From: Geomonas agri
Lineage (GTDB): Bacteria; Desulfobacterota; Desulfuromonadia; Geobacterales; Geobacteraceae
DNA length: 64,000 bases
Assembly: GCF_020179605.1 (NCBI RefSeq)
Contig: NZ_JAINZO010000002.1
Location: 1,550,001 to 1,614,000, forward strand
Reading direction: 5' to 3'
Shown here piece by piece: positions 2,831 to 52,960 of the stretch. Position numbers and translations under genes: made by a program. Under the pieces are notes generated by a model. It saw only the letters and a program-made list of their open reading frames with translations, had not been told where the DNA came from and did no database searches. Numbering within the stretch: the first letter of the stretch is position 1; the number at the start of each line of letters is the position of its first letter.

Positions 2831-4720
2831 ATGAAGAAGTTCCTGGACAGGGTCGCGCAAGGGGTGTTGATCGGCGATGGCGCCATCGGCACCATGCTCT
2901 ACGCCAAGGGGGTGGCGCCGGAGGCGAACTTCGAGCACCTCAACCTGGTGCGCCCGGAGCTGGTGCTGGAACTGCACCGTGAGTACCTCGCTGCCGGCGC
3001 GCAGGTCATCGAGACCAACACCTTCGGCGCCAACTGCGCCAAGCTCTCCGCCATCGGCCTGGGGGGCAAGGTCGCCGAGATCAACCGCAGGGGCGCGCAA
3101 CTCGCAAGAAGCGCGGCGAACGGGCAGGACGTGTTCGTGGCCGGCTCCATCGGTCCACTGGGGCGCGGCAAGAGCGAACTGTCGCCGGAGCAAATCGCCG
3201 ACAGCTTCCGCGTTCAATCGGCGGCGCTTGCCGAGGGTGGGGTGGATCTCGTGATCCTTGAGACCTTCTCTGAGCTGGACGAACTGTTGGTTGCCCTGGC
3301 GGCAGCCAAGGAGACCGGTCTTCCCGTGGTGGCGAATCTGGCCTTTGGTGAGGGGGGGCGGCTACCGGGCGGGACGTCCGCCGAGGGCGCCGCGCGTGCA
3401 CTTGCCGCGGCCGGTGCCGATGTCGTAGGCGCCAACTGCGGCGCAGGGCCCCTTGAACTGCTGGCCACGGTGAAACGCATCGCCGCCGCCTGCTCGCTGC
3501 CGGTGGCCGCTTATCCCAACAGCGGCTTTCCCGAGTACATCGAGGGGCGCTATATCTACCGGACCACCCCCGGATACTTCGCCGATCGCGCCGAGGAGCT
3601 GGTTACCGTCGGCGCCTCTTTGGTTGGCGGCTGCTGCGGCACCACCCCTGAACACATCCGCGCCATGGCCGTGCGGCTGCAAGGTAGCCTGAATCTTACC
3701 CTCGCCCCGCGGGAGAGGGTGCCCGAAGGGCGGGTGAGGGTCGTGCCACGAAGTGAGGACGTTGCCACTGCCGACGCCCTCACCCCCGGCCCCTCTCCCG
3801 GAGGGCGAGGGGAGCCTTCAGCCACATTCCTGGATCGTTGGGGCACCGAGCCGGTGATTACGGTTGAACTCGATCCCCCTAAGGGGCTCGACTGCGCCAA
3901 GGTGCTGGCGGGGAGCCGGGCTCTTAAGGAGGCGGGAGCGCACGCCATCAACCTGGCCGAGAACCCGCTGGCCCGCGTGCGCATGGGCAACCTTGCGCTC
4001 GCCTCGCTGATCCGCCGCGAAGTCGGCATCGAGGTGATCGCGCACGTCACCTGCCGCGACCGTAACCTGATTGGGATGCAGTCCGAGTTGATGGGGGCGA
4101 GCCTGCTGGGTGTAACGTCCATCCTAGCCGTCACCGGCGACCCGGCAAGTTTAGGCGATGAGGCGGGAGCGTCATCCGTGTTTGACCTCAACTCCTTCAC
4201 GCTGATCAAACTCCTGAATGACCTGAATAGTGGCGTCAATGCGCTTGGCAACCCGATCGGGTCCGGTACCGGTTTCGCCATCGGTGCTGCCTTCAACCCC
4301 AACACTCAGAGCATGGAGGTGCAGGTCCGGCGCTTGGCGAAGAAGGTGGCCAACGGCGCCCGTTTCGCCCAGACCCAGCCCATCTACGACATCGCCCGTT
4401 TCCACGACATGATGGAGCAGACCTCGCACCTGGGCATCCCGGTTCTACCCGGCGTGCTGCCGCTCGTTTCCGGGAGGAATGCCGAATTCCTGCACAACGA
4501 GGTCCCCGGCATCGTGATACCCGATGACATCCGCAAGCGCATGGCCGGCAAGAGCGGCGACGAAGGTGTGGCCGAAGGTCTCGCCATCGCCAAGGAGTTC
4601 ATCGAAGCCGCCAGTGCCAGGGCCGGTGGTTTCTACATCATGCCGCCCTTCGGCAAGTACGAGATCGCGGTGGAGTTGGTTAAGTTTATAAAAAGCAATG
4701 CGGAACACAGAGGACACTAA
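2831..4720 (+). CDS. Bifunctional homocysteine S-methyltransferase / 5,10-methylenetetrahydrofolate reductase
   Basis: The N-terminal half (residues 1-285) is a Zn-dependent homocysteine methyltransferase barrel. It has DGAIGTML at the start, GANCG, and GGCCGTTPEHI with the two zinc cysteines. The C-terminal half (about 335-629) is a MetF-type FAD barrel, with VELDPPKG, the AHVTCRDRN motif, ILAVTGDP and FAQTQPIYD. Together they would reduce methylene-THF and methylate homocysteine to methionine. Residues about 289-327 join the two domains and are encoded by an inverted pair of palindromic repeats (ALTPGPSPGGRGE). The last residues (SNAEHRGH) are encoded by the arm of another repeat family. 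The start directly abuts the previous stop. Confidence 0.9.
   Translation: MKKFLDRVAQGVLIGDGAIGTMLYAKGVAPEANFEHLNLVRPELVLELHREYLAAGAQVIETNTFGANCAKLSAIGLGGKVAEINRRGAQLARSAANGQDVFVAGSIGPLGRGKSELSPEQIADSFRVQSAALAEGGVDLVILETFSELDELLVALAAAKETGLPVVANLAFGEGGRLPGGTSAEGAARALAAAGADVVGANCGAGPLELLATVKRIAAACSLPVAAYPNSGFPEYIEGRYIYRTTPGYFADRAEELVTVGASLVGGCCGTTPEHIRAMAVRLQGSLNLTLAPRERVPEGRVRVVPRSEDVATADALTPGPSPGGRGEPSATFLDRWGTEPVITVELDPPKGLDCAKVLAGSRALKEAGAHAINLAENPLARVRMGNLALASLIRREVGIEVIAHVTCRDRNLIGMQSELMGASLLGVTSILAVTGDPASLGDEAGASSVFDLNSFTLIKLLNDLNSGVNALGNPIGSGTGFAIGAAFNPNTQSMEVQVRRLAKKVANGARFAQTQPIYDIARFHDMMEQTSHLGIPVLPGVLPLVSGRNAEFLHNEVPGIVIPDDIRKRMAGKSGDEGVAEGLAIAKEFIEAASARAGGFYIMPPFGKYEIAVELVKFIKSNAEHRGH
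3698..3811. repeat. Family A palindromic repeat pair inside a coding sequence
   Basis: Two related GC-rich elements lie in inverted orientation (3698-3742 and 3774-3811), each with a CCCTCACCC...CTCTCCC...GGGCGAGGG pattern. The second is nearly identical to the complement of 21151-21185. They are read in frame as an inter-domain linker in the methyltransferase/reductase fusion, translated as ALTPGPSPGGRGE. This resembles REP/BIME-like extragenic palindromes that have entered a gene. Confidence 0.75.
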
Positions 4721-49279: not shown

Positions 49280-49310
49280 AAAGGGGGCTCGCTTGAGCCC
49301 CCTTTCTTTT
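49280..49310. terminator. Bidirectional intrinsic terminator
   Basis: An 11-bp stem AAAGGGGGCTC/GAGCCCCCTTT (49280-49290, 49295-49305) with a GCTT loop is followed by CTTTTT on the right. A-rich sequence on the left gives a tail for the leftward zinc-ribbon gene. Confidence 0.92.
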
Positions 49311-49453
49311 TAACTGCAGCCGCACCCTTTGGAGTTGTCTCCGCTCAGGGGCAGTTTCTTGCCACACTTCTGGCACCGCCAGAAGAGGCCACCTCAGCCG
49401 GGCATCAGGATCATGAGCCCCTGGCAATCGGGGCAGCTTTTCTCGTTGGCCAT
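49310..49453 (-). CDS. Small zinc-ribbon protein with in-frame UGA, candidate selenoprotein
   Basis: The minus-strand ATG at 49453 follows AAAGGAGGTTTGCAT, an ideal ribosome binding site. The ORF has 47 codons to TAA at 49310, with UGA as codon 20 (49394-49396). The protein starts MANEKSCPDCQGLMILMPG, then the UGA residue, then GGLFWRCQKCGKKLP and a Cys-rich tail GCGCS. Both sides of the UGA belong to one zinc ribbon (CPDC ... CQKC). Directly after the UGA the mRNA forms a perfect 8-bp stem (49367-49374 with 49378-49385) with the loop GGU, 17 bases from the UGA, fitting bacterial SECIS rules. The alternative is a nonsense mutation. Confidence 0.6.
49367..49396 (-). promoter_or_regulatory. UGA codon plus candidate bacterial SECIS hairpin
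   Basis: The UGA is at 49394-49396. CUUCUGGC pairs with GCCAGAAG around the loop GGU. A lower GCC/GGC helix may extend it. The guanines at the start of the loop are the feature recognised by SelB. Confidence 0.55.
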
Positions 49454-49484
49454 ATGCAAACCTCCTTTGTTGGGTAAAACCTCG

Positions 49485-50141
49485 CTAGCGGACCGATACG
49501 GCAATGCTCCCCACCCCGGCGATCTCGGCGACCACCCGGTCGCCGCTCGTGATCGGCCCGACCCCGGCGGGCGTGCCGGTCAGCACCAGGTCACCAGGCT
49601 CCAGCGTGAAGATGGAGGAGAGGTAGCTTAACAGTTCGGGGATGCGGTGGATCATGAGGTCCGTCCCGCCGTCCTGGCGCTTCTCGCCGTTCACCGTGAG
49701 CGTGATGCGCAGCTGGTGCGGGTCGGCCACCTGGGTTGCCGGGACGAACGGGGAGAGTGGGCAGGCGGTGTCGAACCCCTTGGCGATGTCCCAGGGGAGC
49801 CCCTTCTTCTTGAGCTCTGCCTGCACGTCTCTCAGGGTCAGATCGATGGCGACGCCGTAGCCAGCCAGGTAGGAGAGGGCGTCGGCGGCGGGAATGTCGC
49901 GTCCCTCCCTGCCGATCAGAAGCGCCAGCTCCGCCTCGTGGTGGCAATCGCTGGAGTAGGAGGGAATCACGATCTCCTCTCCCGCGCCGATCACGCTGGT
50001 GGCGGGCTTGGTGAAGATCACCGGGCGCTCCGGGGTCTCGTTGCCCAGCTCCTTGATGTGGTCGGCGTAGTTGCGCCCGATGCAGAGGATCTTGCCGATC
50101 CTTACCGGCTCCGCAGAGCCGAGCAATTGTGCCGTCTTCAT
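49485..50141 (-). CDS. Fumarylacetoacetate hydrolase (FAH) family protein
   Basis: 218 residues. KILCIGRNYADHIKELG, PVIFTKPATSVIGAGEEIVIP, CHHEAELALLIGREG and the final GDLVLTGTPAGVGPITSGD are the metal and substrate blocks of the FAH superfamily. Members are hydrolases or decarboxylases of acylpyruvates, oxaloacetate decarboxylases or fumarylpyruvate hydrolases; short single-domain types like this are often acylpyruvase or oxaloacetate tautomerase. The ATG at 50141 follows AGAGGAGAACC. It lies 11 bases after the radical SAM gene, on the same strand. Confidence 0.88.
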   Translation of the reverse strand: MKTAQLLGSAEPVRIGKILCIGRNYADHIKELGNETPERPVIFTKPATSVIGAGEEIVIPSYSSDCHHEAELALLIGREGRDIPAADALSYLAGYGVAIDLTLRDVQAELKKKGLPWDIAKGFDTACPLSPFVPATQVADPHQLRITLTVNGEKRQDGGTDLMIHRIPELLSYLSSIFTLEPGDLVLTGTPAGVGPITSGDRVVAEIAGVGSIAVSVR

Positions 50142-50152
50142 GGTTCTCCTCT

Positions 50153-51106
50153 TCAGGCCGCCCTGACCTCGCTGGCAAGCCGGCATCCCTGCCAACTGCC
50201 GCGCCTTCTCAGCTCGTTGATCACGGCGTACCACATCTGGTTGTTTTTCAGGTTCCAATTGGGGGCGACCCGGATGGCAAGGGGAGCAGAACCGTACAGT
50301 CGCTGTACGGTGACCCGTGCCGGGAGCTCCTCCAGGAAATCGCAGGCAGTGGCCACGTACTCGTCGATGCCGATCGGCTGCCAGCTCCCGTCCCGGTACA
50401 TCTCGGCGAGCAGCGTGTTCTCAACGGCGTGCAGCTGGTGCAGTTTCACGGAATTGACCGGGAGCGAGGCGATCAGGCGGGCGGTCTTCAGGAAGCCGCT
50501 CCTGGTCTCGCCGGGGAAACCGTAGATCAGGTGGGTGCAGATCTCGAGCCCCCGTCCGGAGAGCCGCTCAACCGCGTCAAGGTACTCGGCAAGGGTGTGG
50601 CCGCGGTTGATCCGGGTCAGGATGGCGTCGTCCATGGACTGCAGGCCGAGCTCCACGCAGACGTAGTGCTCGCGGGCCAGTTCGGTGAGCAGGTCGATGG
50701 CGGCGGGGGAGAGCGAGTCGGGGCGGGTGCCGACCGAGATCCCCAGCACGTCGGGGTGCGCGAGGGCTCGCCGGTACAGGTCGGCGAGCTTCTCCACCGG
50801 GCCGTAGGTGTTGGTGTACTTCTGGAAGTAGACGATGAACTTCTCGCTCCCCAGCCGTTCGCGGTGGTAGGTCATCCCCGCGGCCATTTGCTCCTCGACC
50901 GGGATCAGGGCCTGGGTCTCCTTGGGGGAAAAGGAACTGTTGTCGCAGTAGATGCACCCGCCGGTGCCGCGGCTACCGTCGCGGTTGGGGCAGGTGAAGC
51001 CGCCGTCGACGTTCACCTTGCTGACCCGGCAGCCGAAGCGGCGCCTGAGGTACGAGCCGTAGGAGTTGATGCGCAGTTCGCTATGGATCGGTTCGCCGAC
51101 GGTCAT
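50153..51106 (-). CDS. Radical SAM protein of the YhcC/TIGR01212 type
   Basis: 317 residues. The N-terminal GCRVSKVNVDGGFTCPNRDG and GGCIYCDNSSFSP give the family's cysteine motif, with the cluster cysteines in CPNRDG ... CIYC. FIVYFQKYTNTYGPVEKL and ISVGTRPDSLS are further landmarks. The enzyme is a radical SAM protein of unknown reaction in most genomes. Its start abuts the thiE stop, and it precedes the FAH gene in a leftward block. Confidence 0.88.
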   Translation of the reverse strand: MTVGEPIHSELRINSYGSYLRRRFGCRVSKVNVDGGFTCPNRDGSRGTGGCIYCDNSSFSPKETQALIPVEEQMAAGMTYHRERLGSEKFIVYFQKYTNTYGPVEKLADLYRRALAHPDVLGISVGTRPDSLSPAAIDLLTELAREHYVCVELGLQSMDDAILTRINRGHTLAEYLDAVERLSGRGLEICTHLIYGFPGETRSGFLKTARLIASLPVNSVKLHQLHAVENTLLAEMYRDGSWQPIGIDEYVATACDFLEELPARVTVQRLYGSAPLAIRVAPNWNLKNNQMWYAVINELRRRGSWQGCRLASEVRAA

Positions 51107-51766
51107 CTAGACGTTGTGCTCCTCGAGCGGGGGAAGCATGGTCAAAAGCCCTTTCGCGGCCTCGCGCGGCTCCGGTGCGGAGAGGATGGCAGAGATGAGG
51201 GCGATGCCGCGCACGTCGCCGGCGACCGCCTCGGCGCAGTTGTCCATGTTCACCCCCCCCAGGGCAAACACCGGGATCTGCAGCATCTGCGCTACCTTGT
51301 TCAGCTTCTCGACCCCCACCGGTTCGCCGTACTCGGCCTTGCTGGGGGTGTAGTAGACCGGGCCGAAGGTGATGAAGTCGGCCCCCATCTCCTGTGCGGT
51401 GATGGCCTGGGTCTGGTTGTGGCAGGAGACTCCGATCAGCTTGCGCTCGCCCAGGAGCCTTCTGACCTTGTACAGCGGCAGGCTGGTGCTGCCGATGTGC
51501 ACGCCGTCGGCGTCGACTGCGAGTGCCACGTCCACGCGGTCGTTGATGAACAGCTTGGCGCCGTAGCGGGAGGTGAGGCGGCGCAGTTCCTGTGCCGTCT
51601 CGTAGAGTTCCTTGGTGCTGGCCCCCTTGTCCCTCAATTGCACGGCGCGCACGCCCCCCCTCAGGGCCTCCTCGACCACGAACTCCAGGTTACGCCCGAG
51701 GGTCTCGCTACGCCCGGTGATCAGGTAGAGGTTGAAGTCAATCCAGAGGGAGTCGAGTCCTTTCAC
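51107..51766 (-). CDS. thiE: Thiamine-phosphate synthase
   Basis: 219 residues of TIM barrel. [51 protein letters not shown] and [10 protein letters not shown] are ThiE blocks. It couples the pyrimidine pyrophosphate with the thiazole phosphate to make thiamine phosphate. Its start overlaps the thiG stop by four bases. It forms a thiS-thiG-thiE order on the minus strand. Confidence 0.95.
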
Positions 51767-52545
51767 GCGATCAGCCCCGCCAGCGGCGACGAGGCGGTGG
51801 CGTAGAGCTTCCTCGGGATGCGCCCGGCGCGGTAGGCGAGCCTGCCGGCCCGGACCGCCAGGTTCATCGCCTCGGCCATGGCGACCGGGTCCTGGGCACC
51901 AGCGATGGCTGTATTCATGAGCACGCCGTCGCAGCCAAGCTCCATGGCGATGGCCGCGTCGGAAGCGGTGCCCACGCCGGCATCGACGATGACCGGGACC
52001 TTGACCGTCTCCAGGATGATCTGGATGTTGTACGGGTTACGGATGCCCAGGCCGGAGCCGATGGGCGCCCCCAGAGGCATCACCGCGGCGCATCCCATGT
52101 CCTCCAGCTTCTTGCAGATGATCGGGTCGTCGCTGGTGTAGGGGAGCACGGTGAACCCTTCCGCGATGAGCACCTTGGCCGCCTTGAGCAGTTCCTCGTT
52201 GTTGGGGAAGAGCGTCTTCTCGTCCCCGAGCACCTCGAGTTTCACGAAATCGGAGAGCCCCGCCTCGCGGGCGAGCCGGCACGTACGGATGGCGTCGTCG
52301 GCGGTGTAGCAGCCGGCGGTGTTGGGTAGCAAGGTGTATTTCTTCAGGTCGATGTGGTCCAGGAGGGATTCCTTGGTCCGGTCCGAGATGTTGACCCTTC
52401 TCACCGCGACGGTGATGATCTGGGCGCCGGAAACCTCGATGGCGCGCACCATCTGCTGGAAATCGGCGTACTTGCCGGTCCCCACCATGAGGCGGGAGTC
52501 GAATTCGCGTCCTGCGATGACGAGCTTGTCATTTGTCAAAGGCAT
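51763..52545 (-). CDS. thiG: Thiazole synthase ThiG
   Basis: 260 residues. [20 protein letters not shown] and ITVAVRRVN open the barrel. [15 protein letters not shown] contains the Schiff-base lysine. [31 protein letters not shown] is the phosphate-binding region. It builds the thiazole ring from DXP, dehydroglycine and ThiS thiocarboxylate. The ATG at 52545 follows GGAG by seven bases; a GTG at 52548 is an alternative. About 100 bases separate it from thiS. Confidence 0.96.
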
Positions 52546-52648
52546 CACTGTTCTCCAATCGGTAGCGTCTTGTCAGGTGGTCGGCTCGGCCCGTTGCGGC
52601 GGGACCTGGGGGGAGCTGGAGATGGGCGGGCGGTTTTTCGCGGTGCGT

Positions 52649-52858
52649 CTAGCCGCGGCCGGCGCCCCCTCCTACGAAATGGACGATCTCCAGGGCATCC
52701 CCTTCCTTGAGCAGGGTGGTCTCGTACTGTGCCTTAGGGAGGATGTCCAGGTTCAGCTCGACGGCAACGCGGCGCGGGTCGATGCCGAGAGAGACCAGGT
52801 ACTGCTGAACCGTGAGGGGATCGATCGATACGGCTTCGCCGTTGGTGGTGATGTTCAC
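52649..52858 (-). CDS. thiS: ThiS sulfur carrier with a C-terminal extension
   Basis: 69 residues of ubiquitin-like fold (TTNGEAVSIDPLTVQQYLVS, RRVAVELNLDILPK, GDALEIVHFVGGG). ThiS normally ends in Gly-Gly, whose carboxylate is adenylated and thiolated. Here the GGG is followed by Ala-Arg-type residues (AGRG) before the stop, so the tail would have to be trimmed to be active. The GTG start follows GGAGCAGCA. It is the first gene of the leftward thiamine block. Confidence 0.88.
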   Translation of the reverse strand: MNITTNGEAVSIDPLTVQQYLVSLGIDPRRVAVELNLDILPKAQYETTLLKEGDALEIVHFVGGGAGRG

Positions 52859-52931
52859 TGCTGCTCCGGTATTGCATGACGTTGGGGCTGGCCGGGTCAG
52901 TCGCGGCTCGAGCCGGGCGTAACCCGACCGT

Positions 52932-52960
52932 AAACTAACAATACGGCCCCCCTCTGTCAA
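52932..52960 (-). promoter_or_regulatory. Candidate thiS promoter
   Basis: On the minus strand TTGACA (52955-52960) and TAGTTT (52932-52937), spacing 17, lie about 75 bases before thiS. No TPP riboswitch motif (CTGAGA, ACCTGATC) is present in the leader. Confidence 0.45.

Follow-up and report, generated by a model that had tools for sequence, protein, structure and literature searches.

The locus

The window, by which we mean the whole 64,000-nucleotide stretch of Geomonas agri DNA that was analysed (contig NZ_JAINZO010000002.1, forward-strand positions 1,550,001 to 1,614,000), carries on its minus strand a very short open frame directly downstream of a gene for an FAH-family enzyme. Read from 49453 to 49310, the frame translates as MANEKSCPDCQGLMILMPG-U-GGLFWRCQKCGKKLPLSGDNSKGCGCS, with U marking its single in-frame TGA, at codon 20. 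Under the standard code translation would stop after 19 codons, and a gene in which a stop-like codon comes so early is easily dropped by ordinary annotation. We distinguish the following features.

49310..49453, minus strand: predicted selenoprotein gene of 47 codons plus TAA, codon 20 being UGA(Sec), from the sequence and comparison with homologues
49394..49396, minus strand: in-frame UGA, in all likelihood read as selenocysteine (Sec20)
49424..49435, minus strand: first CxxC motif, CPDC, codons 7-10, from translation and alignment
49364..49375, minus strand: second CxxC motif, CQKC, codons 27-30, overlapping the 3' arm of the hairpin, from translation and alignment
49461..49466, minus strand: ribosome binding site AGGAGG, 7 nt 5' of the ATG, from the sequence
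49367..49385, minus strand: putative SECIS hairpin with an 8-bp stem and loop GGU, 16 nt after the UGA, from its fold, the codon table and comparison with a published model
49385-49378 and 49374-49367 (arms) and 49377-49375 (loop), minus strand: parts of the hairpin
49485..50141, minus strand: upstream FAH-family gene, from PF01557, NF007967 over cut-off and the same neighbour in 37 of 44 genomes
49280..49311, no strand assigned: inverted repeat with a T run between convergent genes, a probable shared terminator, judged by eye and unscored

The initial annotation, made from the letters alone, had described this frame with the same coordinates, strand and codon-20 UGA, an excellent ribosome binding site, and the two halves of a zinc ribbon on either side of the UGA; each of these descriptions holds, with AGGAGG at 49466-49461 and the CPDC and CQKC motifs both present. 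Purine-rich stretches, again judged by eye, also lie 5' of the homologues displayed. Among the 1,773 TGA triplets on both strands of the window, the one at codon 20 is the only one with an in-frame CxxC on both sides within 20 codons.

Conservation of the in-frame UGA

Searching the 97 genomes of the order with a query that carried cysteine at codon 20 (threshold E 0.001), we found a homologue in 44 of them, distributed over 15 of 28 genera, and each match contained exactly one TGA. Because the query had cysteine at the site, a cysteine form would have scored at least as well; none appeared at this threshold among the 97 genomes. A wide scan with an alignment, covering 84,980 species genomes, returned 45 loci, 44 with TGA at the site and one, from Geotalea toluenoxydans (L109), in which the frame is broken there; cysteine stands at the site in none of the 45. 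The wide scan relied on two exact peptide patterns, one of which spells cysteine at the UGA site, and may miss more divergent relatives; the two surveys share species and are not independent samples.

All but one of the 45 loci are labelled as Geobacter and its relatives or as unplaced Deltaproteobacteria MAGs, among them Geomonas, Citrifermentans, Geotalea, Trichlorobacter, Oryzomonas, Geomobilimonas, Pelobacter, Geobacteraceae and Desulfuromonadaceae, and the closest named relatives in the wide scan are Geomonas species. A search for homologues with cysteine aligned at codon 20 had been proposed at the outset: they are absent within this Geobacterales family and present in a sister family, NF041197, at the column aligned to the UGA. 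The same proposal would have abandoned the selenoprotein reading had homologues carried a residue other than cysteine and no hairpin, or had the UGA been a sequencing error; within the family no other residue takes the place of the UGA, and the UGA is no error. That selenocysteine is never replaced by cysteine within the family, as found here, is unusual and suggests a chemistry that sulfur would find hard to replace.

The single relative outside the order, at 4351-4524 of a Candidatus Methylomirabilota MAG contig (L108), keeps the TGA and the hairpin (loop GUU), has a different C-terminus and lacks an FAH gene upstream; horizontal transfer or mis-binning is a possible origin.

A hairpin under selection at the RNA level

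Beyond the UGA lies a perfect 8-bp stem (CUUCUGGC/GCCAGAAG) with loop GGU, as first proposed; the distance from the UGA had been put at 17 bases and is in fact 16 nt. The bSECIS model, as given in the legend to Fig. 2 of PMC13188914, has a loop of 3-9 nt with G in its first two bases, a stem of 4-16 bp, a spacing of 16-37 nt and an energy of -7.5 kcal/mol or lower; the codon-20 hairpin, with a loop of 3 (GGU), a stem of 8, a spacing of 16 and -10.9 kcal/mol for the hairpin alone, lies inside these ranges. The proposed agreement with known bacterial SECIS features thus stands, though the agreement is not specific: in a looser scan of the window that allowed G-U pairs and stems from 4 bp, 132 of 1,780 TGAs reach -7.5 kcal/mol and 24 reach -11, so a fit to the model carries little weight alone. 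Of the 1,773 window TGAs, 6 are followed, in SECIS geometry, by a perfect stem of 8 bp or longer, and three of these share the codon-20 hairpin. The folding energy does not stand out (z -1.31, with 19 of 200 shuffled sequences folding as well or better), and the nine Rfam matches, none of them to a SECIS family, all fall under their gathering scores. The case for a SECIS element rests on conservation, not on folding energy.

That conservation is most visible in codon choice. We tabulated codons for 42 of the 45 loci, omitting the frame-broken locus, one duplicate gene and the Methylomirabilota locus, and took as background each codon's share among the codons for the same amino acid. The hairpin codons L23-K29 are frozen in 41-42 of these 42 distinct genes: CTC in 41 (background 0.29), and TTC (0.70), TGG, CGG (0.28), TGC (0.77), CAG (0.83) and AAG (0.68) in all 42. 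Outside the hairpin, P8, G12, G21, G22 and G31 are each spread over 3-4 synonymous codons: all four proline codons are used at P8, the counts at G21 are 21, 12 and 9 (GGC, GGG, GGT), those at G22 are 29, 6, 3 and 3 (GGC, GGT, GGG, GGA), and those at G31 are 21, 13, 6 and 2 (GGC, GGA, GGG, GGT). C30 is TGC in 34 genes and TGT in 8, while L16 (CTG in 33 of 42) and P18 (CCC in 29 of 42) show some bias and are not frozen. In all 42 genes the Arg26 codon ends in G, a base that falls in the loop, and this is what recognition of the loop by SelB would lead one to expect; the stem is invariant across the table, leaving no base-pair variation for covariation.

These observations bear on the simplest alternative, in which the UGA simply terminates translation or is a sequencing mistake, and the frame is a pseudogene or a product of chance. 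The early end of the frame under the standard code and a hairpin energy that is not unusual in itself are what such a reading would predict; a TGA that recurs at one and the same codon in all 44 homologues, from 15 genera, and in 44 of 45 loci, a protein conserved on both sides of it, and synonymous freezing confined to the hairpin are not, and we regard this alternative as exceedingly improbable.

Selenocysteine machinery

The initial annotation had called for a check of selA, selB, selC and selD, and the genome of the window proves to be fully equipped: SelA (602.6 bits), SelB (395.9 bits, over cut-off), SelD (359.2 bits, itself with one in-frame TGA) and tRNA-Sec (74.9 bits) are all present. 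The TGA of its own selD gene (L172, G000:C2:65544-66458) has an 8-bp stem with loop GGC 17 nt downstream of it, and this element, whose geometry is almost that of the codon-20 hairpin, serves as a control.

SelB and tRNA-Sec were surveyed over the 97 genomes, SelA and SelD in the window's own genome. SelB, counted at E 1e-60 or better, matches in 43 of 44 gene-positive and 42 of 53 gene-negative genomes (Fisher p 0.0057, uncorrected for kinship), one of the 42 (G076) lying under the cut-off; the gene-positive genome lacking a SelB match (G041) is 84% complete and in about 300 contigs. A tRNA-Sec over the gathering score occurs in 82 of the 97 genomes and in 41 of the 44 gene-positive ones, the three exceptions being G035, G041 and G083 (the last 98% complete); the filters of this search can lose weak matches. 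We set aside a tRNA-Sec count of 97 of 97, which takes in matches below the gathering score that are probably ordinary tRNAs, and use only the count of 82.

Another possibility is that the UGA is read as a different amino acid by suppression, or that the hairpin has another regulatory role such as attenuation: selenocysteine at residue 20 is, after all, deduced from sequence, and many RNA hairpins regulate. Against this stand the hairpin's agreement with the published bSECIS ranges and with the geometry of the genome's own selD element, the presence of the selenocysteine machinery, and the cysteine that sister-family proteins place at exactly the UGA column, and we consider it very improbable. 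Selenocysteine insertion at codon 20, which we strongly infer, is the better reading. The proposal of a selenoprotein thus gains support from the recurrent TGA, from a hairpin frozen at synonymous sites and from the machinery, and on sequence grounds the 47-codon gene is almost certainly a conserved selenoprotein gene.

In five genomes (G004, G020, G024, G082 and G084) SelB is matched twice over the cut-off, and in one of them, G082, three tRNA-Sec hits exceed the gathering score; these genomes may possess a second selenocysteine system.

A probable sister branch of a named selenoprotein family

No Pfam model matched over its gathering score, and the best NCBIfam match was to NF041197, 'dual CXXC motif small (seleno)protein', at 24.2 bits against a cut-off of 40. 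Not one of the 97 genomes of the order contains an NF041197 match over that cut-off (the search was run at E 10, gave noise-level matches in 95 of the 97, and served only for this count). To compare the families we used an alignment of 41 Geobacterales rows (A2, which omits L089, L092, L103, L105 and L109 and adds the window's own copy) and one of 18 NF041197-type proteins drawn from 40 loci (A3). Every member of A2 matches NF041197 at E 0.01 or better (best 5.3e-6), and hhalign aligns A2 with A3 over residues 7-37, U with U/C, at a probability of 96.6 and E 6e-10.

NF041197 itself exceeds its cut-off in 87 of the 395 genomes sampled from the phylum, some matches having no stop and some one TGA. 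The 40 NF041197-type loci that we examined comprise 20 cysteine forms (L112-L131) and 20 selected from the phylum matches listed, of which 19 have TGA and one (L144) cysteine; the cysteine forms place their cysteine exactly at the UGA column. Most of the 40 share with the Geobacterales family the arrangement C-x2-C-x9-[U/C]-x6-C-x2-C, with identical spacing; L139, L149 and L150 have one extra residue before U, and in L145-L147 a CxC replaces the first CxxC. Small size, the same Cys/Sec spacing, and a hairpin after the UGA whose loop has G near its start are common to both families.

The two also differ in several respects. NF041197 has cysteine forms, whereas the Geobacterales family is Sec-only in 44 intact loci; in NF041197 members the C-terminal half is acidic, frequently with CDRL or something similar at its end, a feature missing from the 47-residue protein in the comparison of A2 with A3, and the Geobacterales family has a CxC tail instead. 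PG-U-GG and GLFWRCQKCG belong to the Geobacterales branch, whose motif is CPxCxGxMxLxPG-U-GGLFWRCQKCG...CxC. The loop lies 21-23 nt after the UGA in 18 of 22 NF041197-type genes tested, as against 16 nt in the Geobacterales family; in the other four the distance is 16 (L138), 17 (L141 and L143) or 19 (L149). Under the same hairpin rule, 13 of the 22 reach -7.5 kcal/mol. In L138 (G222) the hairpin, 16 nt after the UGA, places a GGU loop on Arg-Cys codons, as in the Geobacterales family.

Run against the 395 phylum genomes, the profile of the order family matched 13, 7 inside the order and 6 outside it. The seven matches outside the order comprise three NF041197 genes with TGA (G199, G167 and G132) and four weak ones, one with TAA and three without a stop. 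L164 from G199 (MICKHCGGLIVLVRT-U-RAVFWRCKECG...) is intermediate between the Geobacterales family and NF041197. L166-L168 (E 2.8e-5 to 1.7e-4), whose hairpin tip bears neither Cys nor Sec, and L170, which lies within a long open frame of 758 aa, were rejected as relatives and taken as general zinc ribbons.

Whether the gene is merely a divergent member of NF041197 is a matter of degree, and we give that view a substantial minority chance. It draws on the identical Cys/Sec spacing, the significant profile match and hhalign alignment, the match of all 41 A2 members to NF041197, and the intermediate L164; it is opposed by a score well short of the curated cut-off here and in every genome of the order, by differences in C-terminal tail, in neighbouring genes and, for most members, in where the hairpin lies, and by the lack of cysteine forms. 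Sequence comparison makes the Geobacterales gene very probably a sister of NF041197, and we file it as its own Sec-only Geobacterales branch, a sister branch and not a member at the curated cut-off.

Another named family, NF049953 ribbon_DG_selen (hypothetical protein DG), bears the name of a ribbon selenoprotein, and its motif GUxG resembles G-U-G-G; it was rejected as the identity of the gene, being a 172-position model that leaves the 47-residue protein unmatched and has no match in its genome.

The initial annotation had called the protein undescribed. This is upheld insofar as no NCBIfam or Pfam model matches over its cut-off and we found no paper naming the family, and it falls short insofar as the related NF041197 is already named. 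A recognisable dual-CXXC PG-U-GG protein of the Geobacter order was absent from the literature as accessible, supplements aside, including the table of 119 families and subfamilies in PMC13188914; an unnamed earlier listing is possible. NF041197 appears twice in that paper's Table 1, as OS_HP3 (motif RxU) and as hypothetical protein DW (motif GxU). The accessible text of PMC1794560 gives 8 selenoproteins for each of three Geobacter species, none of the dual-CXXC PG-U-GG kind; in that of PMC1914089, conserved in-frame stops were sought in 191 genomes and a cytochrome was the one new selenoprotein predicted; and in that of PMC12013277, one G. sulfurreducens strain has 13 known and no new selenoproteins. 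By its sequence, then, the gene adds to a named kind of dual-CXXC small selenoprotein a new branch, which in all intact loci found is Sec-only.

A second NF041197-like TGA gene that stays below the cut-off with its stop kept occurs in three genomes (L141 in G295, L148 in G351 and L150 in G446); with its TGA read as cysteine, L141 scores 46.1 bits and passes. L142 and L143 are similar, each being the sole match listed in its genome. Gene searches that keep the stop may miss some NF041197-like TGA genes.

Predicted fold and a possible mechanism

AlphaFold2, given 41 sequences with Sec as Cys, produced a model of moderate confidence (pLDDT 76, pTM 0.50; residues 45-47 below pLDDT 50) with strands at 4-6, 13-19, 22-27 and 33-35, in which position 20 occupies the turn between the two long strands. 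Motifs and predicted strands agree with two CxxC knuckles on a three-stranded sheet, and together they support the putative zinc ribbon that had been proposed; there was no significant fold match in the PDB, where Foldseek returned RNA polymerase subunit and Thermus ZifS zinc ribbons at a best E of 0.2. Sequence matches to the PDB likewise indicate a weak zinc-ribbon likeness (best E 0.0037), and we discarded both searches as guides to function. Likeness of the model to generic zinc ribbons (RNA polymerase subunit I, TFIIS, Thermus ZifS 8yoz) is weak, at E 0.2 or worse, and we know of no selenocysteine in proteins of that kind.

These features suggest a scheme in which SelB, bound to the hairpin, would deliver Sec-tRNA at the UGA, and the product would be a small zinc (or iron) ribbon whose two CxxC motifs bind one metal ion. 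Sec20 would then lie, remote from the metal, at the tip of the central beta hairpin as an exposed selenol available for nucleophilic redox or metal(loid)-binding chemistry; the C-terminal CxC (C44 and C46, conserved in at least 90% of A2) would provide the likely resolving thiols. Sequence and model together lean slightly towards a redox or metal(loid) function of the selenol. If correct, the active-site architecture would be unlike that of thioredoxin-like CxxU/UxxC selenoproteins. Taken jointly, a conserved selenoprotein, a Sec-only branch related to NF041197 and a ribbon with a selenol at its tip form the best explanation, one that we hold to be highly probable.

The hosts are bacteria much studied for metal and electrode respiration, and those with named strains include Geomonas, Citrifermentans and Trichlorobacter; the small size of the gene, its compact hairpin and these strains open both selenocysteine insertion and function to direct test.

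The FAH-family neighbour

The upstream gene, separated from the selenoprotein gene by 31 nt, encodes an FAH-family protein (PF01557, E 1.2e-64; NF007967, 225.1 bits against a cut-off of 201). In 37 of the 44 gene-positive genomes an FAH gene precedes the selenoprotein gene on the same strand, at a distance of 21-123 nt; of the other seven, five have FAH elsewhere, one has it at 1005 nt and one, G041, in which the selenoprotein gene stands at a contig end, has no match. Of the 45 loci of the wide scan, 39 have FAH no more than 400 nt upstream, the remaining six being L097, with only 26 nt of upstream sequence, L093, with FAH 995 nt away, and four with none. The selenoprotein is probably co-expressed with this enzyme. 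We rejected the idea of an obligatory pair in view of the presence of FAH (E 1e-50) in 80 of the 97 genomes against the selenoprotein in 44; FAH often occurs without it. FAH is the usual neighbour in the Geobacterales family and was seen at none of 43 sister-family loci (1.5-3 kb flanks).

Instead of acting alone in redox chemistry, the protein might serve the FAH-family enzyme as a subunit or regulator, as its position directly behind FAH in most gene-positive genomes and loci would suggest. The many genomes with FAH and no selenoprotein, the seven gene-positive genomes in which FAH is distant, elsewhere or missing, and the sister family's lack of an FAH neighbour speak against such a role, which we think unlikely; any direct functional link between the two proteins is similarly doubtful. 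The substrate of the enzyme can be guessed from its family to be of oxaloacetate type: FAHD1, of the same superfamily, is described in the accessible part of PMC12176266 as an oxaloacetate tautomerase and decarboxylase.

Over the free-standing protein that we prefer, a fuller picture can be drawn only tentatively, and as a whole it has rather less than an even chance: a family found in the Geobacter order and on one Methylomirabilota contig, replaced by cysteine in none of 44 intact loci, in which a rigid metal-ribbon scaffold would carry a catalytic selenocysteine at its tip and a CxC resolving pair, beside an FAH-family enzyme. Further upstream of the FAH gene, at 50153-52960 on the minus strand of the window, are what we take to be genes for a radical-SAM-like protein and thiE-, thiG- and thiS-like proteins, and the selenoprotein gene may be the last gene of a long operon.
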